Shown in pieces: positions 23,635-37,104 of a stretch of DNA of 64,000 bases. The stretch covers positions 310,001 to 374,000 of the forward strand of contig NZ_JAQKGU010000002.1 in NCBI RefSeq assembly GCF_028532725.1. Direction: 5' to 3'. Source of the stretch: Desulfovibrio sp. Fe33. GTDB lineage: Bacteria > Desulfobacterota > Desulfovibrionia > Desulfovibrionales > Desulfovibrionaceae. The position numbers and the translations under genes were made by a program. The notes below the pieces were generated by a model that saw only the letters and a list, made by a program, of their open reading frames with translations, had not been told where the DNA came from and did no database searches. The first letter of the stretch is position 1; every line of letters begins with the position of its first letter.

Positions 23635-23683
23635 TGTGCGTGAGGTTAAACACACGCGGTTTTGGTGTGCGGTGAAGCGCACA
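23635..23683. promoter_or_regulatory. Candidate activator sites (TGTGCG-N6-CGCACA) upstream of the envelope operon
   Basis: A perfect inverted repeat TGTGCGGTGAAGCGCACA lies at 23666-23683. A half-conserved copy starts 31 bp upstream (TGTGCG at 23635). The perfect copy begins 93 bp before the -24 element at 23759. The same motif precedes the sulfotransferase operon at 35344, so it is likely the site of the sigma54 regulator encoded at 32739. Confidence 0.7.
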
Positions 23684-23758: not shown

Positions 23759-23773
23759 TGGTACGCTTCTTGT
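23759..23773 (+). promoter_or_regulatory. Sigma54 (-24/-12) promoter of the envelope operon
   Basis: TGGTACG-CTTC-TTGT agrees with TGGCACG-N4-TTGC except for one base in each element. The GG and TTG are intact and the spacing is correct. It lies 58 bp before the ATG at 23832. Confidence 0.7.
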
Positions 23774-23831
23774 TTCCAGGAAGGCAGGTTGTCCTCAGGA
23801 CGTTGAACTCAGCTTTTCAGGAAACAGGGAT

Positions 23832-26738
23832 ATGCAACACACATTCAGAGTACTGGCCCTTGCCATGGCCCTGCTCCTCGCGCTTCCGGGCGCCGGGGCG
23901 GCCGCAACCGATCCGCACGGCCTGTCGCCGTCCGCGGACATGACTTTCCTGCCGCATCTGGCGGGTCTCCGGAACAAGGTCTTCAAGAACCAGTTCGGGC
24001 AGAAAAAGAGCCTGACCGAGGCGATCGTGCTGCGCGGCAGCGAGATCGCGGAAGGCAAGGCCACAGTGCAGCCCGGCGGGCTGTTCTATTTGTCCGAGAC
24101 GTCCCACGACGCCAGGCCGCTCATGCGCGACCCGTTCCTGGTCCTGGGCGAACACACCTATCTGGTGGACCTCAAGACCTCCATGCGGACCTTCCGCGAC
24201 GTGGCCCTGAACAAGGGCGACCGCACCCCGCTGGGCGACTCGGGCTACCGGCTGTGGTTCGACTATTCCACCGACCACTACGACGTGCCCTACGCGGAGT
24301 TTGCGGTCATTTCGCCTTCGGGCGGCTTCCCGCTGGAGTTCCCCATCGCCTCCAAGTTCCCCAAGCGGGAAGAGGTCCGGGAAATCAGCCTTGAGGAAGG
24401 GCTGAATCCCCAGTTGGAAAAGTTCTACCTGGACAACACGTATTACTTTGGGGCCAGCAAGTACGTCGCCCGGAACGTGGACTTCGACGAGGCCGAATTC
24501 GCCTCCATCGAGTTCCCGGAGATCACCGAGGCCACTTTCTCCCTTCAGCGGCCCATCATTCTTGAATTGCGCCAGGAAGACTACCGCTACTACTTCAACA
24601 AGCGGATTTACGCCTTCAGGCAGCCCGACGGGTTCCTGGTCCGTGTGACCAACTTCACCGGCAGCGAGGTGTTGGCCGAAAAGCTGGTCAAGCCCACCAC
24701 CGCGCAGGAATACAAGACCCGCGATGGCGAGATGGACAAGTACCACCTGACCATTCCCGAGCTGGACATGCGCGTGGAGATCGTTATTGATCCCTCCTTC
24801 CTCAAGGACTCGGATTTCGTGCCCTGGTCCACCGGCAAGTCCCACGGTTATTCCTCCGGCCGCTTTTCCTTCGTGGTCTACCGCGACCTGGTCACTGTGA
24901 AGAACGGGCAGCCCTGGCCGCTGGACGACCGTTACAACGTGGTCCTGGAGCCGAATCTCAAGACCGGTATGCTGCATCGCCTGCTCCTCGAGAACAATCG
25001 CGAGATCGTTTTCGACAAGGACAACGACACCTATGCAGGTCCGGTCAAATACTCCGACATCTGGAACCGCAACGCCTTCAAGGTCGTGGCCGACGGTGTC
25101 GACGAAGGCGTGGTCCGCGACCTGTACGTGCGCGACTACTATTTCATGCGCACGGACAACATGGTCATGTGGCCCGAAGAGGGAAAGAACGACATCGACT
25201 TCTTCCTCGGCTCTTCGCCCGTGCTGGAGCCGATCATCGAGCGTTCCTTCCTGACCAGGCTGGCCGATTCCTCTTACGGCACCGTGGTCGAGGAATCGAA
25301 GTTCACCTCCTATCCCAAGGCCATTTCCGACGCGTCCTTCTACGAGCCGGATCATACCGCGCCCTTCGTGCCCAGGCTCAAGGGCCTCATGCGCAAGGTG
25401 ACGCGCAACCGCAAGAAGGAACGCCTCCTGTCGGCCGAGGCCGTCATGATCCGCGGTTCCTACGTGGATTACCACAACAACAAGGTCGTCATCCCGCCCG
25501 CGGGCCTGTGCTACACCTCGCGCAACGCGCGCAACATCCGCACCCTGGCAGGGGAAAGCTTCTTCCTGCTGGGCAAGCGGGCCTACCTGACCACCTTCAG
25601 TTCCGGGACCTTCGTTCGCAAGAACTTCGACCTGGACTTCTGGAAGAACCAGCCCATGGGCGACGGCAACCTGATGTTCTGGCAGGACGAGCTGCTCGGC
25701 GTTCGCAACAAGGCGTTGCGTTACACCGGCAGGACCTACCTGGACGACCGTCCTGTGGCGTCCCTGTCGCTGATGAAGTACTCCGGCAACCGCTGGGGCG
25801 CGCACTTCTACCTGGCTCAGGGCCTGTCCCGGGACAAGGCGGCGCATGACCGTTACTTCATGCCCGACCTCTTCTCCGAGGGCGCGACCTACATCCAGCC
25901 CGAGTACATCGGTTCCAACTACGTAAAGATCAAGGAGTTCGGCACTCCTTCGCTGCAAAGCATCAGCTACACCTACAAGAAGCCCAAGGGCCTGGCCCTC
26001 GGTGTCGGCGAGACCACCCAGCTCGGCAAGTACACGCTGCGCTGCGACGGGCTCGACGAGCAGGCCGGGACCATCGCCCTCTCCCTGGCGGACAAGACCG
26101 GCAAGGTCGTCGCCGCCAAGACCGTGGGTCCGCTGAACGACGAGGCCCGCAAGCTTCTGCCCCAGCACATGGAAACCGCGCGCATGATGCAGTTCAAGGT
26201 CGGCTCGGTCCTGGCCGAGATGGATCTTGAGCAGCCCTACGCGGACGGCAAGGCCAACCTCTGGCTGTTCACGGGCATCCAGGAGTTGGAGCGCGACACT
26301 CCCTTCGAGTACGACCCGCGCTTCATGGTCCGTCCCGACGTGTGCGGTCACTGCTACCAGCTCAACGAAGTGCTCCTCGACAACCCCGAGGCGATCGTCT
26401 TGGACAAGGAACATCCCGTCTACGAAGGCCCGAAGAACGAAAAGGGCCAGCCCCTGTTCCGCATCGTGCTCGACAGCTTCGACGGCGAGATGATCCACGC
26501 CTGGCACATCGAGACCGAGGAAGACGGCGAAGTGGAGAAGACCGACAACCTGGCCTTCCGCCCCCGCAACAATGTGGATGTGCTGGTCGGCGTCAACGGA
26601 ACCATCGAAGGCTTCCTGCGCCTGTCCATGCTCCCGCGTCTCGGCTTCATGGATCACTGGCGCGTCGGCTCCAAGGCTCCGCACGAAAAGGTCAGCGGCT
26701 CTGTGAACACCGGCGGTTCCGCCCACATCCGCCGCTAG
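23832..26738 (+). CDS. 968-aa secreted protein of unknown function, internally duplicated
   Basis: The signal peptide MQHTFRVLALAMALLLALPGAGAAA points to export. I do not recognise a family. The protein is two related halves about 470 residues apart. LPHLAGLRNKVFKNQFG near residue 40 matches VPRLKGLMRKVTRNRKK near 512, and each is followed by a RGSxxxxxxxxxxPxGLxYxS segment. The tail of half one (GMLHRLLLENNREIVFDKDN, then DFFLGSSPVLEP) matches the tail of half two (GHCYQLNEVLLDNPEAIVLD, then DVLVGVNGTIEG). Half two adds a CGHC motif. It is rich in Tyr and charged residues, with no later membrane segment, so it is probably periplasmic or outer-surface. It leads an operon behind a sigma54 promoter and precedes a YeiH-like membrane protein. 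Confidence 0.85.
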   Translation: MQHTFRVLALAMALLLALPGAGAAATDPHGLSPSADMTFLPHLAGLRNKVFKNQFGQKKSLTEAIVLRGSEIAEGKATVQPGGLFYLSETSHDARPLMRDPFLVLGEHTYLVDLKTSMRTFRDVALNKGDRTPLGDSGYRLWFDYSTDHYDVPYAEFAVISPSGGFPLEFPIASKFPKREEVREISLEEGLNPQLEKFYLDNTYYFGASKYVARNVDFDEAEFASIEFPEITEATFSLQRPIILELRQEDYRYYFNKRIYAFRQPDGFLVRVTNFTGSEVLAEKLVKPTTAQEYKTRDGEMDKYHLTIPELDMRVEIVIDPSFLKDSDFVPWSTGKSHGYSSGRFSFVVYRDLVTVKNGQPWPLDDRYNVVLEPNLKTGMLHRLLLENNREIVFDKDNDTYAGPVKYSDIWNRNAFKVVADGVDEGVVRDLYVRDYYFMRTDNMVMWPEEGKNDIDFFLGSSPVLEPIIERSFLTRLADSSYGTVVEESKFTSYPKAISDASFYEPDHTAPFVPRLKGLMRKVTRNRKKERLLSAEAVMIRGSYVDYHNNKVVIPPAGLCYTSRNARNIRTLAGESFFLLGKRAYLTTFSSGTFVRKNFDLDFWKNQPMGDGNLMFWQDELLGVRNKALRYTGRTYLDDRPVASLSLMKYSGNRWGAHFYLAQGLSRDKAAHDRYFMPDLFSEGATYIQPEYIGSNYVKIKEFGTPSLQSISYTYKKPKGLALGVGETTQLGKYTLRCDGLDEQAGTIALSLADKTGKVVAAKTVGPLNDEARKLLPQHMETARMMQFKVGSVLAEMDLEQPYADGKANLWLFTGIQELERDTPFEYDPRFMVRPDVCGHCYQLNEVLLDNPEAIVLDKEHPVYEGPKNEKGQPLFRIVLDSFDGEMIHAWHIETEEDGEVEKTDNLAFRPRNNVDVLVGVNGTIEGFLRLSMLPRLGFMDHWRVGSKAPHEKVSGSVNTGGSAHIRR

Positions 26739-26768: not shown

Positions 26769-27929
26769 ATGAATACCGATAGCATGGCAATAAACTACGA
26801 GCTGGGCCGCAAATCCTGGTTCAGCGCCCTCTACGGATTGAAGGCGGTGCTGCCCGGCCTGTTGGCGATGTTCTTCGTCGCCATCTTCAGCAACAACCTG
26901 GCGGGGGTGCCGAATCCGTTCACCCTGCAAAACCTGTTCGCCTGGCTCGACGGGGTCATCGGACCGGTGCACCATCAGTCCTTCTTCCAGGTGCTCAACT
27001 CCAACTTCGTCTGGAATCCGCTTCTGCTCGGCTTGATAATCGGCAACGTCTTCGGCGTGCCGGACTGCTGGAAGCGGGGCCTGTCCTACATCCACATGCT
27101 CATGCCCCTGGGCATCATCATGCTGGCCCCGCACTTCATGATCGGCCACGCCTTCAAGCTCGGCGCGGCCCCGATCCTGATCTGCACCGCGTTCCTGTTC
27201 CTGACCGCGACCATGACCCTGTGGATTTCGAAGCTGTTCAAGCTCGATGACCGCCACGGTTCCATCATCGCGGGCGGCCTGGCCACCGGCGACCCGCACG
27301 TGTGCGCCATTCTCATGCCGCTCATCAAGGCCAAGGGCGGCCAGGTCGTGCACTCCACGGCCTGCGTCATCGGCTTCGGGCTCGTCTCCATGTTCCTGCT
27401 GCCCGTGCTGGGCGAATGGATGGGGCTGACCCCCAAGGCCATGGGCCTGGCGTCCGTGGTGGGCGTGGGCAACAACGCCCAGTCCCTGTTCGCCGCCTTC
27501 GGCAGCAGCTACGAGGCCGGTCGCTGGGCCACCTGGTACGACGTCGGCCGCCACGTCATCATGCCCGCCGGCTTCCTGTACGTGTTCATCGTCATGTTCG
27601 TGCGCAAGCTCAGGCGGCGTGACGACGAGACCGTCATGGCCACCCGGGGCATCAAGAGCTTCCCGATCTGGCTCGGCGTGTTCGTCTTCCTGTGGGTCCT
27701 GGCCTGCCTGCACCTGTTCAAGGAGCCTGCCCATCACGCCATTTTCGAAATGGTCAAGTGGGACTTCTCCCTGGCTGCGGGCGCGCTCGGCCTGTCCATG
27801 TCCTTCCGCGAGATCACGCAGCACGGCCTCAAAGGCGTCGCAGTGACCGCAGTGGCGGGCGTCCTGCGCATCGTCCTGCTGCTCGCCGCCATCGCCCTGT
27901 GCGCCAAAACCGGCCTTCTTGCGGCCTAG
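26769..27929 (+). CDS. Polytopic membrane protein, YeiH-like (putative sulfate exporter family)
   Basis: 386 aa with about ten hydrophobic segments. Layout and motifs resemble the YeiH/UPF0324 family: a WNPLLLGLIIGNVFGVP segment early, IIAGGLATGDPHVCAILMP in the middle, and a GLASVVGVGNNAQSLFAAF segment followed by a WYDVGRHVIMPAGFLYVFI helix. That family is called a putative sulfate exporter, on thin experimental evidence. Here it lies 30 bp after the 968-aa protein and in the same proposed regulon as two sulfotransferases, which would make anion export sensible. The assignment is by eye and could be wrong at family level. The membrane location is certain. Confidence 0.6.
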   Translation: MNTDSMAINYELGRKSWFSALYGLKAVLPGLLAMFFVAIFSNNLAGVPNPFTLQNLFAWLDGVIGPVHHQSFFQVLNSNFVWNPLLLGLIIGNVFGVPDCWKRGLSYIHMLMPLGIIMLAPHFMIGHAFKLGAAPILICTAFLFLTATMTLWISKLFKLDDRHGSIIAGGLATGDPHVCAILMPLIKAKGGQVVHSTACVIGFGLVSMFLLPVLGEWMGLTPKAMGLASVVGVGNNAQSLFAAFGSSYEAGRWATWYDVGRHVIMPAGFLYVFIVMFVRKLRRRDDETVMATRGIKSFPIWLGVFVFLWVLACLHLFKEPAHHAIFEMVKWDFSLAAGALGLSMSFREITQHGLKGVAVTAVAGVLRIVLLLAAIALCAKTGLLAA

Positions 27930-27942
27930 TAGGAGTATCGAG

Positions 27943-28095
27943 ATGACAAGACATACGCATACCACCGACGAGACCGGCTTCGACTACATGGCCAACAAGG
28001 GCGTGGAAGAGCAGGACCGGGACACCCTGGGCATCCTGTTCGCCGTGGCCGTCATGGCCTTCATCACCGTCAGCCAGTATCTGGGCCTGCTTTAG
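27943..28095 (+). CDS. 50-aa single-span membrane protein
   Basis: MTRHTHTTDETGFDYMANKG leads into an acidic patch (VEEQDRDT) and one C-terminal membrane helix (LGILFAVAVMAFITVSQYLG). It starts 13 bp after the YeiH-like gene, behind TAGGAGTATCGAG, and stops 9 bp before the next gene. Tight spacing and a good ribosome-binding site support it. It may be a small subunit or stabiliser of the adjacent transporter. No family is recognised. Confidence 0.75.
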   Translation: MTRHTHTTDETGFDYMANKGVEEQDRDTLGILFAVAVMAFITVSQYLGLL

Positions 28096-28104
28096 GAGGG
28101 CATC

Positions 28105-28308
28105 ATGCACGGCATCTACTACGTCATCCTGCCCCTGTTTGCGGTCCTGCTGGTCGTCCTGACCACTGCGGCCCTGTACATGGGCGTGTTCAAGGCGGAC
28201 CGCGAGTCGGCTTCGCCCTTCAGGAAAACCGTTTCCGGCATCGCCAGCGCAGCCGTCTCCTGCCTGGCCTGGTTCTTCATGTACAGCCATCACTACCTTG
28301 GCTGGTAA
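28105..28308 (+). CDS. 67-aa membrane protein with two spans
   Basis: MHGIYYVILPLFAVLLVVLT forms the first span, a basic loop FKADRESASPFRKT follows, and a second span ends in HHYLGW. The start follows GGAGGGCATC. It lies in the operon between the 50-aa protein and the helix-hairpin-helix protein. The function is unknown, with a transporter accessory role as the simplest guess. Confidence 0.75.
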   Translation: MHGIYYVILPLFAVLLVVLTTAALYMGVFKADRESASPFRKTVSGIASAAVSCLAWFFMYSHHYLGW

Positions 28309-28327
28309 CCCCTTAGGAGCAACGATC

Positions 28328-28624
28328 ATGAAAAAGATCTGCATCGCTTTCGCACTGCTGCTGGCTCTGGCCCTGTCCGCTTCCACCGTCTTCGCCGCCG
28401 ACAATGACGGCAAGATCAACCTCAACGTGGCGACCGTGGAGCAGCTCGAAGCCGTCGAAGGCATCAGCCATGAGCTGGCCCAGGAAATCGTCAAGGCCCG
28501 CGAGGAAAACGGCGAGTTCGTGGACATGTCCGAACTGCTCGACATCGAGGGCGTGGACAACGCCCTGCTTCGGAAGCTCGACAAGTTCATCTACATAGAG
28601 GCAGCTTCGGACTGCAACTGCTAG
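28328..28624 (+). CDS. Secreted ComEA-like helix-hairpin-helix protein (first copy)
   Basis: 98 aa starting MKKICIAFALLLALALS, a clear signal peptide ending near VFAAD. The frame opens 10 codons earlier, but that ATG overlaps the previous gene and lacks a ribosome-binding site. The mature part has INLNVATVEQLEAVEGISHE, LAQEIVKAREENGEF and a second hairpin around LLDIEGVDNALLRKL, the ComEA/T2SK-type double helix-hairpin-helix. It ends in DCNC. In competence systems ComEA binds DNA, but no competence genes are near. A relative is encoded at 38748. Confidence 0.88.
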   Translation: MKKICIAFALLLALALSASTVFAADNDGKINLNVATVEQLEAVEGISHELAQEIVKAREENGEFVDMSELLDIEGVDNALLRKLDKFIYIEAASDCNC

Positions 28625-28637
28625 CCGGAGGTAGGTC

Positions 28638-29099
28638 ATGAACCGTCTGCTGCTCATCATCGCCGTCGCCTGCTTCGCAGTTTCCCTGGCCGCTGCCGCC
28701 GCCCAAGCCGAGCTGTTCGGCGATTTCGTGGGCTACACCGCCTGTGGCGAGTGTCACCCGAAGATCGTCGAGGGGTGGAAGACCACCCCCCATGCCCGGG
28801 CCTTCGAGGACCTCAAGCATCAGGGCGAGGAAAAGCAGTCCGTTCCGGGGTGCGTGCGCTGCCATGTGGTGGCCATGGACGCGGAGGGCGGTTTTATCGA
28901 CATGGACCTTACCCCCGAGCTCAAGGACGTGCAGTGCGAGTCCTGCCACGGCCCCGGGCTGGCGCATTCGCAGTCCGGCGACCCGGCCGATCTCAAGGTG
29001 CATCCCGACGAGGCCCTGTGCCGGACCTGCCATACCGAGGGGCAGGACAAGAACTTCGACTACAAAGTAAAATCCCGTTTCGTTCACGGGGGAGAATAA
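28638..29099 (+). CDS. Periplasmic tetrahaem cytochrome c (c554-like)
   Basis: 153 aa with signal peptide MNRLLLIIAVACFAVSLAAA. Four haem-binding motifs are present: CGECH, CVRCH, CESCH and CRTCH, with additional histidines for axial ligation (for example HARAFEDLKH, CHGPGLAHS). Size and spacing resemble cytochrome c554/NrfB-like tetrahaem proteins. It lies 13 bp after the helix-hairpin-helix gene and 9 bp before the DUF1573 selenoprotein. I infer periplasmic electron transfer for the DUF1573 pair or for the secreted 968-aa protein. Confidence 0.9.
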   Translation: MNRLLLIIAVACFAVSLAAAAAQAELFGDFVGYTACGECHPKIVEGWKTTPHARAFEDLKHQGEEKQSVPGCVRCHVVAMDAEGGFIDMDLTPELKDVQCESCHGPGLAHSQSGDPADLKVHPDEALCRTCHTEGQDKNFDYKVKSRFVHGGE

Positions 29100-29108
29100 G
29101 GAGCGATC

Positions 29109-29804
29109 ATGCGTTTGAAATCCATTGCCCTGGCCCTCGCCATGCTCGTCTGCATGGCGGGCGCGGCCTCGGCCCAACCGCTTGCCTTCAGCCAGACGAC
29201 CGTGGACTTCGGGTCCATGACAGAAGGTCCGGTGGCCGGCAAGGCGATCACGGTGACCAACAGCACCGCAGAGGAAATCACCATCACGAACGTGGCCACG
29301 TCCTGAAGCTGCACCACCACTGCTCTTGGAAAGAGCAGCCTCAAGCCCGGTGAAGCGACCGAACTGGTCATCAAGTACAATACGTTCAAATATCCCGGTA
29401 AGTTCGACAAGACCGTCACGGTGTCCACCGGCGACGGCAAGGAGAACGCCCAGGTCGTCCATATCGTGGGCTACGTGGAACCGATCCCCATGGGAGTCAT
29501 GGAGGTCAACCCGCGCAAGGTCGATCTCGGGACCCTGGCCGCCGACCGGCCCAACAAGGTGTCCCTGAAGGTGGCCAACGCGGGCGACGCGCCCATGAAG
29601 GTCACGGCCGTCAAATCCCAGAAGTTCGCGAAGACCTACTGGGAGGGCGAGCTGACCGTGCCCGCCGGACAGTCGGCGGACATCGCCGTCACCCTGGAAG
29701 GGCTGAAGGCCGGGCGGTTCCTGGACATGGTCCTGGTTTACTCCGACGCCCGCAACGACATCGGCAAGGGATACAAGGCCGTCCTCATAGGCAACGTGGA
29801 ATAA
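29109..29804 (+). CDS. DUF1573-family periplasmic selenoprotein (in-frame UGA)
   Basis: 231 aa if the TGA at 29304-29306 is selenocysteine, residue 66. The signal peptide MRLKSIALALAMLVCMAGAASA is followed by the MSP/Ig-like DUF1573 fold (FSQTTVDFGSMTEGP, a family hallmark). The redox motif reads TS-Sec-SCTTT where the family has SCGCT-like Cys pairs. The next gene, of equal length, has TSCACTST with Cys at the same residue number, 66. That makes the UGA a Cys replacement and not a nonsense mutation. A clean hairpin follows the UGA. The C-terminal 107 residues are nearly identical to the neighbour. A thiol or selenol redox role is inferred. Confidence 0.9.
29307..29340 (+). promoter_or_regulatory. 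Bacterial SECIS element of the DUF1573 gene
   Basis: A perfect 8-bp stem CTGCTCTT (29320-29327) with AAGAGCAG (29331-29338) and tight loop GGA, 13 nt after the UGA. The loop G pair and the 22-24 nt distance from the UGA fit bacterial SECIS elements. The Cys-containing neighbour lacks this hairpin at the same place. Confidence 0.82.
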
Positions 29805-29860
29805 CTCCCGGCAGAACAGTGCCCGACACCGTGTTTCATGAGCTTTTCGCACGGCGTTGC

Positions 29861-29887
29861 CTCCCCGGCGCAATACGCGCCGGGGAG
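29861..29887 (+). terminator. Strong intercistronic hairpin between the two DUF1573 genes
   Basis: CTCCCCGGCGC and GCGCCGGGGAG form a perfect 11-bp stem with loop AATAC. No T-run follows, so it may stabilise or process mRNA, or act as a partial terminator separating the Sec and Cys genes. Confidence 0.6.
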
Positions 29888-29941
29888 CCCCGGCCCCAAG
29901 GGTCGGAACTGTGAACGCCGGGGCCAACAAAGGAGATCATC

Positions 29942-30637
29942 ATGAAACATCGTATCATTGCGCTGGCTTTCGCCCTCGTCGTCTGCCTGGCCGGAGCCGC
30001 ATCGGCGGGCCAGCTCAGGATAAGCGACCTCAAGGTCGAATTCGGCAACATGCAGGAAGGCCCGGACGCGCAAAAGACCGTCACCCTGACCAATGCGTCC
30101 TCGACCGAAGCCGTGGTGGCGAACGTTTCCACCAGCTGCGCCTGCACCTCCACGAAACTGGACAAGACCCGGCTGGCTCCGGGCGAGACGGCGACCATGG
30201 TCATCACGTACCATACGCTGAAATACCCCGGTAAATTCGACAAGACCGTCCATGTATTCAGCGGCGGCGAAGGAAAGACCGAGGACGTCATCCACATTTT
30301 GGGGCACGTCGATCCGATTCCCATGGGGGTCATGGAGATCGATCCGCGCAAGGTCGATCTCGGAACCCTGGCCGCCGACCGGCCCAACAAGGTGTCCTTG
30401 AAGGTGGCCAACGCGGGCGACGCGCCCATGAAGGTCACGGCCGTCAAATCCCAGAAGTTCGGGAAGACCTACTGGGTGGGCGAGCTGACCGTGCCCGCCG
30501 GGCAGTCCGCGGACATCGCCGTCACCCTGGAAGGATTGAAGGCCGGACGGTTCCTGGACATGGTCATGGTTTACTCCGATGCCCGCAACGACATCGGCAA
30601 GGGATACAAGGCGGTGCTCATCGGCGCCGTGAAATAA
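29942..30637 (+). CDS. DUF1573-family periplasmic protein, Cys form
   Basis: 231 aa, exactly the length of the selenoprotein upstream. Signal peptide MKHRIIALAFALVVCLAGAASA, then ISDLKVEFGNMQEGP and the redox motif TSCACTST at residues 64-71. The last 107 residues differ from the Sec paralogue at only about seven positions, while the N-terminal half is clearly more divergent, which suggests gene conversion. It follows a 137-bp gap with a strong hairpin, behind AAAGGAGATCATC, and precedes a terminator. It may be a selenium-independent backup for the same function. Confidence 0.92.
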   Translation: MKHRIIALAFALVVCLAGAASAGQLRISDLKVEFGNMQEGPDAQKTVTLTNASSTEAVVANVSTSCACTSTKLDKTRLAPGETATMVITYHTLKYPGKFDKTVHVFSGGEGKTEDVIHILGHVDPIPMGVMEIDPRKVDLGTLAADRPNKVSLKVANAGDAPMKVTAVKSQKFGKTYWVGELTVPAGQSADIAVTLEGLKAGRFLDMVMVYSDARNDIGKGYKAVLIGAVK

Positions 30638-30695
30638 CGTTCAAAGAGAATAGGGCTAGATGAACCGACGCATCTTCGACCACCTCTCGTCGAGC

Positions 30696-30735
30696 TCCCC
30701 CGGCATTCCTCCTGCCGGGGGACTTCGGCGTTTTT
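30696..30735 (+). terminator. Terminator of the envelope operon
   Basis: CCCCCGGCA (30697-30705) pairs with TGCCGGGGG (30713-30721), then CTTCGGCGTTTTT. It lies before the kinase start at 30792, which also argues against a start at 30660. Confidence 0.75.
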
Positions 30736-30791
30736 CGGAACCCGTCCCTGCAAGGTGGCGCGTCGGGCTGCTTTGCTATAGGTTCCACATC

Positions 30792-32735
30792 ATGCGACGC
30801 GCCGTTACCCTCTTTTTGTTTTTCCTGTTCCTGCTCCCGGTTATTTTCCAGGGACAGGCCTTTGCCCGTCCGGTCTATCATGTCGGCACCCGGGCCATCT
30901 CTCCGCCTTTTTCCTTTCTTGCCGTCAAGGACGGCAAACAGGGAGTGCGGGGCTATTCCGTGGACGAAATGGTCATGCTCGGCAAGCTGATGGGCGCCGA
31001 CATGGAGTTCCGGGCCATCCATGACCTGGACAAGCGGCGCGAGCTGTTCACGAAGGGCACGGTGGACATCCTGGCCCACGATTCGGAGGAGACCGCCCGG
31101 GAATTGGACGCCGTCTGGATTCCCGTGGGCATAAGTCTGCGCCACCATCTCTACGTCAACCAGAACTGCCGTTCCGTGACCTGCCTGCGGGACCTCGACA
31201 ACAAAAAGGTCGTGGCCATCACCTCCGCTCCCTACAGCCAGGAGATCCAGCTGGGCGACGACGTGATCTGGCTGAGTTCTCCCCTGGAAGCCCTTACCAT
31301 GGTCAGCCAGGGAGTCATGGACGTGTTCGTGGCCCCATCCGAGCGGGTGGCCGACGATCTCATCGACCGCTACCAGATTCCCAACATCCTCAAGAAGGGC
31401 GTGGTCCTCGGGGAAAGTCCCCTGGGCATCCTCGTGTCCCGGAAAGACCCCGATCTGGCCCCGAAAATCCAGGCAGCCTTCCACCGACTTCAAGAGGTTG
31501 GGCTGGCAGATCAGTTGCAGGACAAGTGGTTCGGCAAGCCGACCATCACCGACGGCATCCGGCATTACGCCAAATACGTGGCCATCGTGTCAGCTGCGGC
31601 CGGGATCATTTTCATCGCCATCGTGGTCTGGAACGTGTCCCTCAAGCGCCGGGTCGATCGGGTGACGCAGGACCTGCGCCGTACAGAACAGCGCTACAGG
31701 GACCTGATCGAGTCTTCGCCGGACATGATTTTCCTCGTCAACGAGGAGGGGCATGTGCTTCATGCCAACGAACGCGCCCGGCACTCCCTTCGTTTCCCTT
31801 TGCCGCGGGACGAGGTCTATCTGCAGCAACTGACGACCCGCGAGTACTCCGACGAGATAGGGGCCTTCCTGAAGAAGGTCTTCAACGACGGCTGCGACAA
31901 GCACGAATTGGAAATGATCGGCGCGACGGGCCAGCCCATGGAGGTTGAGGTGGCTGGCCGGATCATTCAGGGACCGGTCAGGACTCAATTGCTCGCCTGC
32001 CTGTTCGCGCGCAACGTGACCGAGCGCAACCGCATGGAGGAAGAGCTCATCCAGTCCGAGCGGCTGGGCATCATCGGCAAGATGGCGGCTTCCCTGGCTC
32101 ATGAGATCAATAATCCGCTGGGGGTCATTCAGGCCAATGCCGAGGACCTCATGTTCGAGGAGGGACTGACCCCCGATGTTAAGGACGGGCTTTTGGCCGT
32201 GCAGCGCAACGCCATCCGCGCGGGCGAGATCACCAAGGGGCTGCTTGAAGCGGCCACGCCCAAGCCCATGAGCATGGGCGTGGTGGAGGTGGGCAACCTG
32301 GTCCGCGATTCCCTGACCTTGCTGGGCAGCCGCCGCAAGCGGGAGCGGGTGGAGCTGGAACTGCCCGAGGAGTCCCTGCATATCCGGGGCGACGAGCGCG
32401 CCCTGCAACAGGTGCTTATGAACCTGATATTCAACTCGATGGCCGTGACCGGGGAGGATGAGCTTATTCGAATCCGCGCGGTCAAGGCCGGAGAGGATGG
32501 GGACGAGACCGTGCGCATAGTTGTCAGCGACAACGGCACGGGCATCGCGCGGCCCAATCTGACCCAGGTATTCGAGCCGTTCTTTTCCTCGCGCAAGGGC
32601 GGCTTCGGTCTGGGACTGTTCATCACCCGTCGCATGGTGGAGCGGCATGACGGTCTGATTTTCGCTGAATCCGAGCCCGGGAAGGGGACCTGCATGTATC
32701 TGGAATTCCCCTCGGTCCACGCCAAGGAGACATAA
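30792..32735 (+). CDS. Histidine kinase with periplasmic solute-binding and PAS domains
   Basis: 647 aa. I start it at MRRAVTLFLFFLFLLPVIFQ, a signal peptide. The frame runs 44 codons further upstream, but across a terminator hairpin. Residues about 27-255 form a bacterial SBP3-type sensor (YHVGTRAISPPFSFLAVKDG at its start, TKGTVDILAH inside). One membrane span near 270 (IVSAAAGIIFIAIVVWNV) leads to a PAS domain (LIESSPDMIFLVNEEGHVLH). HisKA follows with SLAHEINNPLGVIQ, then the HATPase N, G1 and G2 boxes (DNGTGIARPN, GGFGLGLFITRR). It ends 3 bp before the response regulator gene. SBP3 domains bind amino acids or other small polar ligands, so a periplasmic small molecule is the likely signal. 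Confidence 0.92.
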   Translation: MRRAVTLFLFFLFLLPVIFQGQAFARPVYHVGTRAISPPFSFLAVKDGKQGVRGYSVDEMVMLGKLMGADMEFRAIHDLDKRRELFTKGTVDILAHDSEETARELDAVWIPVGISLRHHLYVNQNCRSVTCLRDLDNKKVVAITSAPYSQEIQLGDDVIWLSSPLEALTMVSQGVMDVFVAPSERVADDLIDRYQIPNILKKGVVLGESPLGILVSRKDPDLAPKIQAAFHRLQEVGLADQLQDKWFGKPTITDGIRHYAKYVAIVSAAAGIIFIAIVVWNVSLKRRVDRVTQDLRRTEQRYRDLIESSPDMIFLVNEEGHVLHANERARHSLRFPLPRDEVYLQQLTTREYSDEIGAFLKKVFNDGCDKHELEMIGATGQPMEVEVAGRIIQGPVRTQLLACLFARNVTERNRMEEELIQSERLGIIGKMAASLAHEINNPLGVIQANAEDLMFEEGLTPDVKDGLLAVQRNAIRAGEITKGLLEAATPKPMSMGVVEVGNLVRDSLTLLGSRRKRERVELELPEESLHIRGDERALQQVLMNLIFNSMAVTGEDELIRIRAVKAGEDGDETVRIVVSDNGTGIARPNLTQVFEPFFSSRKGGFGLGLFITRRMVERHDGLIFAESEPGKGTCMYLEFPSVHAKET

Positions 32736-32738
32736 ATC

Positions 32739-34094
32739 ATGCCCGAAAAGATATTGTTGGTGGACGATGAGCAGGACCTGCTCAGCGCCCTGAAACGTTC
32801 CCTGGGACGCCAGGGATATGTGGTGGACACGGCCTCGTGCGGACCGGACGCCTGGAAGGCCCTGTCCGAAACGGCCTACGACCTTGTGGTCAGCGACCTG
32901 GCCATGGAGCCCATGAACGGCCTGGAGCTGCTTAAGCAGATCCGGTCCATCGACCACATCCTGCCGTTCATCATAATGACCGGGGCCGGAAGCATAGAGA
33001 GCGCGGTGGAGGCCATCAAGCTCGGCGCGTACCACTACATCACCAAGCCGTTCAAGACCCAGGAACTGGCGTTGCTGGCCTGCCGCGCCATCGAGTACGG
33101 AAAGCTGCACCGCAAACTGGAGACGTTCAGCCAGCGGGAGCAGAAGGCGGACTCCGAGTCCATGGTCATCGGCAACACCACGCTCGTGCAGCAGATGATG
33201 TCCATGATCGAGAAGGTCTCGGATTCGGACGTGTCCATCCTCATCCAGGGCGAGACCGGCACGGGCAAGTCCCTGTTTGCAAAGCGCATCCACAACTCCA
33301 GCTCCCGTTCCGAGAAGGCGTTTTTCACCATCGACTGCGGCTCGCTCTCCGAGAACCTGCTCGAAAGCGAGCTCTTCGGCCATGTGAAGGGCGCTTTCAC
33401 CGGGGCCATCCGGGCCAAGCGCGGCCTGCTCGAAGAGGCCCAGGGCGGCACCGTGTTCCTGGACGAGATCGGCGAACTGACGCCGTCCACCCAGGTCAAG
33501 CTGCTGCGGGCCATCCAGGAGAAGGAGATCAAGCCTGTGGGCGGCAACATGCCCATCAAGGTGGACGTCCGTTTCCTGTCCGCCACGAGCCGCAACCTGG
33601 AGGAGGCCGTCGAATCCGGGGAGTTTCGCAAGGACCTCTATTACCGGCTGGCCGTCATACCCCTGCACCTGCCCCCCTTGCGCAACCGCCAGGAGGACAT
33701 GGTCCTGTTCGTGGGGCATTTCGTGCGCAAGTTCAACGAACGCTACAACAAGTCGGTTCAGTCGCTGACGCCGGGAGCCATGCAGACCCTGCGCGACGCC
33801 CCGTGGAAGGGGAACATCCGGGAGTTGGAGAACGTCATCGAACGGGCCGTGCTCCTGGCCGATGGCGACGTCATCAGCGTGGAGGACCTGTGCGCCCACC
33901 CAATGTGTTTTCCGGATTCCGGGGGCGGGGTCGAGGACGGCGCCGTGTCGCTCAAGCAGGCGGTGGAAAAGGCCGAGATCAAGGCCATTCGGCAGGCGTT
34001 GGCCTCATCCGACGGCAACCGATCCAAGGCGGCCAAGATTTTGGGCATCGGACGCCGAACCTTGTACGACAAGATAGACGCTTACAAGCTTTAG
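32739..34094 (+). CDS. Sigma54-dependent response regulator of the envelope/sulfotransferase regulon
   Basis: 451 aa, NtrC type. Receiver residues 1-120 carry VDDEQDL, phosphoacceptor Asp in VVSDLAMEPMNG and the KP motif (ITKPF). The AAA+ domain has GETGTGKS, an intact GAFTGA loop, TVFLDEIGEL and WKGNIREL. The C-terminal Fis HTH reads GNRSKAAKILGIGRRTLYDKI. It lies 3 bp after its kinase and midway between two operons that share the TGTGCG-N6-CGCACA motif and -24/-12 promoters, so it is the best candidate activator of both. All phosphorylation and sigma54-contact residues look functional. Confidence 0.93.
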   Translation: MPEKILLVDDEQDLLSALKRSLGRQGYVVDTASCGPDAWKALSETAYDLVVSDLAMEPMNGLELLKQIRSIDHILPFIIMTGAGSIESAVEAIKLGAYHYITKPFKTQELALLACRAIEYGKLHRKLETFSQREQKADSESMVIGNTTLVQQMMSMIEKVSDSDVSILIQGETGTGKSLFAKRIHNSSSRSEKAFFTIDCGSLSENLLESELFGHVKGAFTGAIRAKRGLLEEAQGGTVFLDEIGELTPSTQVKLLRAIQEKEIKPVGGNMPIKVDVRFLSATSRNLEEAVESGEFRKDLYYRLAVIPLHLPPLRNRQEDMVLFVGHFVRKFNERYNKSVQSLTPGAMQTLRDAPWKGNIRELENVIERAVLLADGDVISVEDLCAHPMCFPDSGGGVEDGAVSLKQAVEKAEIKAIRQALASSDGNRSKAAKILGIGRRTLYDKIDAYKL

Positions 34095-35343: not shown

Positions 35344-35382
35344 TGTGCGGGGTGCGGCACAGTGTGTGCGCCGATACGCATT
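35344..35382. promoter_or_regulatory. Tandem candidate activator sites upstream of the sulfotransferase operon
   Basis: TGTGCGGGGTGCGGCACA (35344-35361) shares the TGTGCGG and GCACA ends and the 18-bp length of the site at 23666. A second, imperfect copy TGTGCG-N6-CGCATT (35365-35382) starts 21 bp further on, two helical turns away. The first copy begins 112 bp before the -24 element. Confidence 0.65.
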
Positions 35383-35455: not shown

Positions 35456-35470
35456 TGGCATGAAACTTGG
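35456..35470 (+). promoter_or_regulatory. Candidate sigma54 promoter of the sulfotransferase operon
   Basis: TGGCATG-AAAC-TTGG matches the -24 element with one change and the -12 element (TTGC) with one change at its last base. The distance between elements is right. That last change lowers confidence. Confidence 0.5.
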
Positions 35471-35610
35471 TTACCCCTGTGTGCGCTGTGTGCGGAAACC
35501 GAAAGGTTCGCTGTTTCGAGAGAGTGATTCGGATTGAGCCGGGAGGCGAAGAACCGCGCAGGCGTTCCGTGTTGGCAACAAATGTATTTGTAACAGGTAA
35601 GGAGGAAAGA

Positions 35611-37104
35611 GTGCTTAAACTGCATCGCTGGCATATGGCTCTGATGCTCGGGATCTCCCTGATCGTCCTGAGTTCCGGGGCGTATGCCTATGAATCCATC
35701 ACCGGTCCCACCGGTGTGTTGTGCTACGACCAGGCCAAGGCCTACCAGGGATACACCCTGTTCGACCCCACGGTGGCCAGCAAGACCACCTATCTCATCG
35801 ACATGCGTGGCAACATTGTTCACACATGGAAAAGCGAGTACACTGCGGGCCTGCATTCCGTGCTGCTGCCCAACGGCCATCTGCTGCGCGCGGGCGCCGT
35901 TCCCAAGAAGCCGGAAGTCGGCTACTGCGGCATCGGCGGCGCGGGCGGCATCCTCGAGGAGTTCGACTGGAACGGAAAGAAGGTATGGGAGTACAAGATG
36001 TTCACTCCCAACAAGGAGATTCAGCATCACACCTTCTGCCGTATGCCCAACGGCAACACCCTGATCCTTGGTTGGGAAACCCTGACCAATGACGAAGCCC
36101 GCAAGCTGGGCCGCAATCCCCTGACCATCCCCACCAAGCCCGTGGTCACCAAGGGCGTCCCCCACGACCGCTTCTGGGTCGACTTCGTCCGTGAGGTCAA
36201 CCGTGAAGGCGAGACCGTGTGGGAGTGGCACATCAAGGATCATATCGGCACCGGTCCCAAGCAGTTCGACATCAACTACACCCTGCCCATGCCCCTGGGC
36301 GAGATGTACGCCACCTATGACTGGTCCCACTTCAACACCGTCAACTACATTCCCGAGACCGACACTGTTGTGCTGAATTCGCGCAACCTGTCCGAGTTCT
36401 ACTTCATCAACCACAAGACCGGCGAGATGGAATACCGCTGGGGCAACCCCTCCGCCTGGGATCCCAACGCCAAGAAGCCCGGCTACTGGGATGACGGTTC
36501 CCAGAAGATGTTCGGCAACCACTGCGCCACCCCGTTGAAGAACGGCCACATCCTCGTCTTCGACAACGGTTCCGAGCGTCCCCAGGATCGCCGGTCCCGC
36601 GCCGTGGAAGTCGATCCCAAGACCGGCAAGGTCGTTTGGGAATTCGCCACCCGTCACACCAACAGCTTCAACTCTCACCGCCAGGGCGCCGTGCAGCGTC
36701 TGAAGAACGGCAACACCCTGATTACCTCCACCCACGGCGGCCATCTCTTCGAGGTCACTCCCGAGGGTGAGGTTGTCTGGGAATTCATCAGCCCCATCTT
36801 CGGCGGCAAGACCAAGGCCGTGGTCAACAACGACGACGCCTTCCCGTTCAACGCCCACATCGACTCCATGACCAACATGGTGCATCGCTCCTATCGTTAT
36901 GGCGAGGATTACCCGGCGTTCTACGGCAAGACCCTGACTCCCAAGGGCTACATCGCCGGTGACGACGCTCCGCGTTTCTTCCGCGATTACCATGCGGGCG
37001 CAGGCTTCGCCGCTCCCGCCGCCGCAGTCAAGGCCGCTCCGGCAGCCAAGGTTGCCGCTCCGGTGGAAGACGAAGGTGGCGAAGCGAGCATGGCCGGCTA
37101 TTAG
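35611..37104 (+). CDS. assT: Arylsulfate sulfotransferase, Sec-exported
   Basis: 497 aa from a GTG start with AAGGAGGAAAGA directly before it. The frame is open further up, but without a signal or ribosome-binding site. The N-terminus LKLHRWHMALMLGISLIVLS is a Sec signal. The mature part has the six-bladed propeller repeats of the PF05935 family, with recurring MPNGNTLI/LKNGHILV and WEF/WEY strands and histidines at HHTF, SHFN, NHCA and SHRQG that would supply the active-site histidines. The family moves sulfuryl groups from an aryl sulfate to a phenol through a sulfo-histidine in the periplasm. The Ala/Pro-rich tail is unusual. No dsbL/dsbI pair is adjacent, unlike the E. coli locus. Confidence 0.88.
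   Translation: MLKLHRWHMALMLGISLIVLSSGAYAYESITGPTGVLCYDQAKAYQGYTLFDPTVASKTTYLIDMRGNIVHTWKSEYTAGLHSVLLPNGHLLRAGAVPKKPEVGYCGIGGAGGILEEFDWNGKKVWEYKMFTPNKEIQHHTFCRMPNGNTLILGWETLTNDEARKLGRNPLTIPTKPVVTKGVPHDRFWVDFVREVNREGETVWEWHIKDHIGTGPKQFDINYTLPMPLGEMYATYDWSHFNTVNYIPETDTVVLNSRNLSEFYFINHKTGEMEYRWGNPSAWDPNAKKPGYWDDGSQKMFGNHCATPLKNGHILVFDNGSERPQDRRSRAVEVDPKTGKVVWEFATRHTNSFNSHRQGAVQRLKNGNTLITSTHGGHLFEVTPEGEVVWEFISPIFGGKTKAVVNNDDAFPFNAHIDSMTNMVHRSYRYGEDYPAFYGKTLTPKGYIAGDDAPRFFRDYHAGAGFAAPAAAVKAAPAAKVAAPVEDEGGEASMAGY

Follow-up and report, generated by a model that had tools for sequence, protein, structure and literature searches.

An in-frame UGA in a DUF1573 gene and its cysteine-encoding tandem copy in a conserved cytochrome gene cluster of Desulfovibrio

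Does an in-frame UGA in a DUF1573 gene of Desulfovibrio stand for selenocysteine (Sec), and how is this gene related to the neighbouring copy that carries cysteine (Cys) at the same residue? A sequence-only reading of the locus had placed a UGA at codon 66 of the gene starting at 29109, an 8 bp hairpin with a GGA loop 13 nt past it, and a Cys66 in the next gene, of identical length. All three features were located in the window (here, the whole 64 000 nt stretch of Desulfovibrio sp. Fe33 that was analysed) at the positions given in Table 1. The Sec-form frame runs from ATG at 29109 through TGA as codon 66 to TAA at 29802–29804, giving 231 residues if the TGA is read as Sec. Both copies pass the Pfam gathering cut-off for PF07610 (DUF1573; 26.1 bits), with 100.9 bits for the Sec copy and 97.3 bits for the Cys copy, and this pair accounts for all DUF1573 genes in the genome (four profile matches, two per gene). 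The motif and its surroundings read ATS-U-SCTTT in the Sec copy vs STS-C-ACTST in the Cys copy.

It had been suggested that DUF1573 might not count as an established selenoprotein family. This was mistaken, as the family is catalogued as OS_HP2 and has an NCBIfam model, NF041425 ('OS_HP2 family (seleno)protein'). 'OS_HP2 pfam07610 UxC' was listed as a selenoprotein in 2008 (PMC2398784), and DUF1573/OS_HP2 appears among selenoproteins, with the motif U-G-C, in 2022 (PMC9312934) and 2026 (PMC13188914); in the available portions of the three papers these are catalogue entries. The window's protein resembles OS_HP2 in its DUF1573 domain and in having Sec at the first Cys of C-x-C. It differs in its U-S-C motif, which departs from the catalogued U-G-C and fits the looser UxC of the available text of PMC2398784, in its conserved cytochrome cluster, in a tandem Cys paralogue present in two genomes, and in scoring below the NF041425 cut-off of 100 bits (55.2 for the Sec copy and 47.5 for the Cys copy). 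Three sister UGA proteins score 50.1, 58.8 and 60.3 bits, and the U-G-C protein of a distant genome, G013, scores 128.5 bits. Judged by these comparisons, the predicted protein is a distinct U-S-C type within the known DUF1573 selenoproteins.

Table 1. Positions of the features of the locus, numbered from the first nucleotide of the window
Feature	Position	Strand	Basis or remark
Inverted repeat TGTGCGG-N5-CGCACA, candidate enhancer site for a sigma-54 activator	23666..23683	+	Ends 75 nt before the promoter-like element
Candidate sigma-54 promoter, GG-N10-GT	23759..23774	+	About 72 nt 5′ of the first gene of the cluster
968-aa secreted protein, two related modules, CGHC in the second	23832..26738	+	Relatives have UGA at the first Cys of the CGHC motif
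Cons_hypoth698 (YeiH-type) transporter	26769..27929	+	Above Pfam cut-off, below NCBIfam TIGR00698 cut-off
67-aa predicted membrane protein	28105..28308	+	No Pfam or NCBIfam match; syntenic in 13/13
Secreted helix-hairpin-helix (HHH; ComEA-like) protein	28328..28624	+	C-N-C end, kept in 13/13 genomes
Cytochrome c, Cytochrome_C554 family	28638..29099	+	Four CxxCH by eye; syntenic in 13/13
DUF1573 gene, Sec form	29109..29804	+	231 residues, in-frame UGA, two Ig-like (DUF1573/HYDIN-type) domains, N-terminal signal peptide by eye
UGA codon 66, predicted Sec, U-S-C motif	29304..29306	+	Same codon in nine genes of the locus (the window's included) and G345
Bacterial SECIS-type hairpin, 8 bp, GGA loop	29320..29338	+	13 nt past the UGA; folding and covariation; not formed in six Cys genes
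Strongly structured spacer of 137 nt separating the copies	29805..29941	+	Fold z −5.13; 11 bp GC hairpin at 29861–29887
Cys66 paralogue, 231 aa, C-A-C motif	29942..30637	+	DUF1573 profile match
Histidine kinase, SBP_bac_3 sensor, PAS, HisKA and HATPase	30792..32735	+	Domain matches; synteny
Sigma-54-dependent response regulator	32739..34094	+	Domain matches; synteny

Reading of the UGA codon

Sec-decoding genes were found in the genome of the window: a tRNA-Sec (79.6 bits, cut-off 47), selB (389.3 bits, cut-off 242.25), selA (610.4 bits, cut-off 267.9) and selD (333 bits, cut-off 125), the last itself containing one in-frame TGA. ARAGORN reported a tRNA-SeC with anticodon tca. Among the 14 genomes with a match to the protein, selA was found in 13, selD in 14 and selB over its cut-off in 13; the selB gene of G079 is divided between two contigs, and selA gave no match in G013. 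The cut-offs were also exceeded in some of 14 control genomes (tRNA-Sec in five, selB in two, selA in one and selD in two).

These matches to the protein come from 297 genomes of the order and fall at 16 places, with TGA at the motif in ten (nine of the present type and the U-G-C protein of G013) and Cys in six. The sequence-only reading had proposed to align homologues and look for UGA at this codon in other Desulfovibrionales. In the alignment of the 15 close genes, from which G013 was excluded as too distant, a single column holds Sec in nine and Cys in six. The nine genes with UGA belong to G000 (the genome of the window), G231, G157, G168, G197, G177, G079, G003 and G206. A further UGA at the same codon lies in G345, from another family of the phylum; its motif is U-A-C, and its gene order matches apart from an inversion of the regulator genes.

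The hairpin (CTGCTCTT-GGA-AAGAGCAG) was examined both by folding and by comparison. Folding of about 40 nt past the UGA, also proposed beforehand, gave a divided outcome: the whole 44 nt are of unremarkable stability (z 0.11, 100 of 200 shuffles as good), whereas the 19 nt hairpin stands out (z −3.11, bettered or matched by 1 of 200 shuffles). In the nine close UGA genes, 98.4 % of stem cells are paired, four of the eight pairs have changed on both sides, and nine cells are changed on both sides vs 3.3 in shuffles. With G345 added to these nine genes, 97.2 % of stem cells are paired and ten are changed on both sides (vs 3.5 in shuffles), with 0 of 500 shuffles as high for either measure. Two of the five covariation measures, both weaker, gave no clear signal in this set of ten, namely doubly changed pairs (4 vs 2.4; 36 of 500 shuffles as high) and further pair types (4 vs 3.4; 205 of 500). 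Pairing drops to 23–58 % when the stem is slid to other registers. At the stem positions, seven or eight pairs are formed in the nine UGA genes of the locus vs two to four of eight in the six Cys genes, and the longest stem in any register is 6–10 bp in UGA genes vs 4–6 bp in Cys genes. The G231 hairpin has one mismatched pair, and that of G345 keeps the 13 nt spacing with a 7 bp stem from which the loop-closing pair is absent. We regard the comparative evidence, a shared UGA and a covarying stem, as decisive over single-sequence folding.

Because tRNA-Sec, selA, selB and selD are present, the UGA is kept in relatives and the hairpin covaries, Sec at codon 66 is strongly supported, as is the Sec/Cys pair that had been put forward. 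As is ordinary in bacteria, the hairpin just 3′ of UGA66 would recruit SelB loaded with tRNA-Sec, yielding a secreted DUF1573 protein of two domains that has a U-x-C centre. Readthrough by a near-cognate tRNA, or reassignment of the codon to Trp or Cys, would likewise show as a conserved UGA with coding sequence beyond it. Either is very improbable, however, given Cys in all six of the 15 genes that lack UGA, a covarying hairpin that goes with the UGA, and the presence of the Sec machinery. The view of this gene as a decaying duplicate, dispensable beside an intact full-length Cys paralogue and with a UGA that is a genuine stop or a sequencing error, can be practically dismissed, since the same codon recurs in ten genomes of which eight show no Cys copy at the locus, the hairpin covaries, and similarity to the G231 counterpart runs on past the UGA (82 % identity across 231 residues).

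Origin and maintenance of the pair

The surrounding cluster (968-aa protein, YeiH-type transporter, 67-aa protein, HHH protein, cytochrome c, DUF1573, kinase and sigma-54 regulator) is syntenic in 13 of 13 genomes, these being the 14 matching genomes without G013, all chosen for matching the protein. The DUF1573 slot holds a Sec gene alone in seven of them, a Cys gene alone in four and a tandem pair in two (the window and G231). The gene is patchy within the window's genus, with matches in 11 of 36 genomes, and the four named contigs that encode relatives are labelled Pseudodesulfovibrio (two), uncultured Desulfovibrio and uncultured Desulfococcus. In the phylum sample, a DUF1573 match was obtained in 188 of 395 genomes, and at least 61 DUF1573 places have one TGA, at whatever position in the gene.

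The Cys copies are united on the phylogenetic tree with a support of 100, and their branch is long. All three outgroup copies on this tree (G079, G003 and G345), which excludes the other Cys-type DUF1573 proteins of the phylum, are of the Sec form, and the split between these outgroups and all genus copies, Cys included, has a support of 76 for DNA and 94 for protein. Since the outgroups carry Sec, the Cys form is most simply explained as derived, and it has probably arisen from the Sec form. A tree built from four neighbour genes also unites the Cys-bearing genomes, but inclusion of G164 leaves this clade with just 58 % support. Most likely, a Sec-encoding ancestor was duplicated in tandem, after which one copy changed from Sec to Cys and lost its hairpin.

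DNA identity between the two copies of the window, measured in a sliding frame, is 0.53–0.61 through and just beyond the motif, 0.69–0.71 at the end of domain 1 and 0.88–0.98 in domain 2. For domain 1, the identity between the window and G231 is 0.72–0.93 for the Sec genes and 0.81–0.98 for the Cys genes. Constrained trees rejected a grouping of copies by genome for domain 1 (p-AU 8.9e-59) and a grouping by form for domain 2 (p-AU 0.011). On the domain-2 tree, the two copies of G231 stand together (support 86) and those of the window are without a supported grouping. Gene conversion has thus apparently homogenised domain 2 of the pair, with domain 1 retaining its Sec or Cys identity. Conversion seems mostly limited to domain 2, reaching the end of domain 1 as well in G231, and the pair would persist at present in this state, evened out in one domain and distinct in the other. 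The pair had been described as a built-in control; this applies best to domain 1, whereas domain 2 of both copies is kept alike.

Pairs of Sec and Cys isoenzymes under selenium regulation are found in the [NiFeSe] and [NiFe] hydrogenases of Desulfovibrio and in the Sec and Cys hydrogenases of Methanococcus. As in these pairs, a single organism retains Sec and Cys versions here. Unlike in the hydrogenases, the two copies are adjacent in one cluster and are apparently still recombining. The Cys copy may serve as a selenium-independent version for times of selenium scarcity. Alternatively, the copies could be specialised for different partners and not be a main and a backup version, or the Sec copy of the window and of G231 could have been regained by transfer; we assign this a smaller but appreciable chance. 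Specialisation would be in keeping with the distance between the window's copies in domain 1 and with a form-specific Y-H-T, the His of which is present in 6/6 Cys genes and 0/9 UGA genes (Asn in seven and Arg in two). Regain would be in keeping with the four related Cys-only genomes that have no Sec at the locus, but the Sec copies of the window and G231 branch near the base of the genus, with weak support (48 for DNA, 80 for protein), and this position fits vertical retention.

According to the available part of PMC1794560, conversion of Sec to Cys (15 events in four families) is rarer than that of Cys to Sec (33 events in 17 families). The proposed history is like those Sec-to-Cys conversions in that Sec would have been lost to Cys in organisms still decoding Sec. 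It is unlike them in that a both-copy intermediate survives, with one domain apparently gene-converted, and SECIS-like remnants described there in some Cys genes contrast with the few stem pairs kept in the Cys genes of this locus. The survival of such an intermediate is of interest against the rarity reported for this direction of change. In the literature searched, with subscription papers mostly outside its reach, no description was found of a tandem Sec/Cys pair with domain-limited gene conversion. What appears to be new is the occurrence of Sec-only, Cys-only and tandem states at one slot, together with conversion limited to a domain of the pair. With three states at one syntenic locus in related genomes, the cost and benefit of selenium become testable with natural pairs that share domain 2.

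The spacer between the copies is 85 % conserved between the window and G231, with fold z scores of −5.13 and −4.15, respectively. Among six genomes searched, it is present in full only in the two with the pair; G198 has a 34 nt match elsewhere. A role as a conserved structured regulatory RNA was considered and rejected, as the 42 pairs compared between the window and G231 comprise no both-side changes, three one-side changes and six broken pairs. An Rfam scan of 28000–31500 gave a single match, which lies outside the spacer and under the gathering score. By eye, GC hairpins similar to that of the spacer also follow DUF1573 in a number of other genomes. The hairpin may therefore have been part of the duplicated unit.

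Regulation of the cluster

All 13 genomes have a GG-N10-GT element (GGTACGCTTCTTGT in seven of them) approximately 66–75 nt 5′ of the first gene, and it is because of this constant place that we consider it a candidate promoter. The −12 element of sigma-54 promoters is usually GC, vs GT in this candidate. A stricter GC-type pattern gave no match at the position, and matches to the sigma-54 pattern alone in the window are not above chance (7 vs 10.4 expected). Judged by eye, 12 of 13 genomes have an intact left arm of the inverted repeat further upstream, and seven of the 13 have both arms intact. With a promoter-like element preceding the cluster and a sigma-54 activator gene at its end, sigma-54 control is likely, and the cluster would probably be driven by the adjacent two-component system together with sigma-54. 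In the available portion of a paper on the sigma-54 regulome (PMC4641369), nothing was found on this operon.

Several minor observations concern this region. The kinase probably starts at the ATG at 30792, where by eye a signal peptide seems to begin, and not at the listed 30660; a terminator-like GC hairpin is present at 30713–30730, between the two. The start of the HHH gene was likewise a choice (28328), the list of open reading frames having a TTG at 28298. A second copy of TGTGCGG/CGCACA, with one mismatch, is located at 35344–35361, upstream of an arylsulfotransferase-like gene (35467–37104) that might share the regulator.

A possible electron relay and a candidate second Sec-using family

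The cluster offers a redox setting, with four CxxCH motifs in the cytochrome and the CGHC and CNC motifs each kept in 13/13 genomes. Signal peptides of the cluster's proteins were assigned by eye. The DUF1573 protein may act there as a periplasmic selenol/thiol-disulfide electron carrier, and its partners would be three other products of the cluster: the tetraheme cytochrome, the HHH protein that ends in CNC and the protein with CGHC. The cytochrome also weakly resembles the C-terminal part of a UshA-like (seleno)protein model, scoring 116.1 bits vs a cut-off of 275. The structure model of the DUF1573 protein was poor overall (mean pLDDT 61.8) and places the U-x-C centre, with low confidence, in a turn that connects strands in domain 1. 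Among the 50 PDB matches listed by a structure search, the TM-score over the query was at most 0.43, which only confirms Ig/PapD/HYDIN-like domains, and no convincing relative of known structure emerged from sequence searches.

The main functional rival is that U-x-C or C-x-C binds a metal or metalloid and does not cycle between redox states, the cluster then handling metals or sulfur compounds. An Ig-like scaffold would be compatible with this, and the available passages of two papers place U-x-C also in the SO_0444 Cu/Zn efflux transporter family (PMC13188914) and a DUF1573 gene within an iron-responsive set of Bacteroides (PMC10434189). However, a tetraheme cytochrome and conserved dithiols in the cluster suit electron transfer equally well or better, and we consider metal binding somewhat unlikely. 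The account as a whole, comprising Sec decoding, duplication with a change from Sec to Cys, conversion of domain 2 and a periplasmic electron relay, is in our judgement highly probable. DUF1573 is a domain of unknown function, and the cluster places it in a concrete setting of tetraheme cytochrome, conserved dithiols and probable sigma-54 control.

The 968-aa protein matched nothing in Pfam or NCBIfam; within the order, 33 of the 297 genomes have a match to it. The long form with CGHC is present in 13/13 cluster genomes and also in G345, G325 and G582. Relatives of approximately 490 aa have an in-frame TGA at the first position of U/C-x-x-C. Among 17 such loci (a very weak match in G238 left out), this position is TGA in 15 and TGC in two, and in an alignment of 16 (without the fragment L098) it aligns with the CGHC of the 968-aa protein. 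Five members of this UxxC family matched nothing in Pfam or NCBIfam beyond chance scores, and the folds downstream of the TGA are weak and varied. For the 968-aa protein, the structure predicted for the second module was useless (mean pLDDT 34.7). The UxxC relatives are a candidate for an unmodelled selenoprotein family, and the cluster may thus lead to a second Sec-using family matched by no Pfam or NCBIfam model. We lean slightly towards a broader view in which the cluster would be an old selenium-linked periplasmic electron relay with two Sec-using families, and the DUF1573 pair a Sec-to-Cys intermediate held by domain-2-biased conversion. A U-x-x-C motif of this kind, with TGA, was also observed at four more loci of one other family (f21) and at one in G380.
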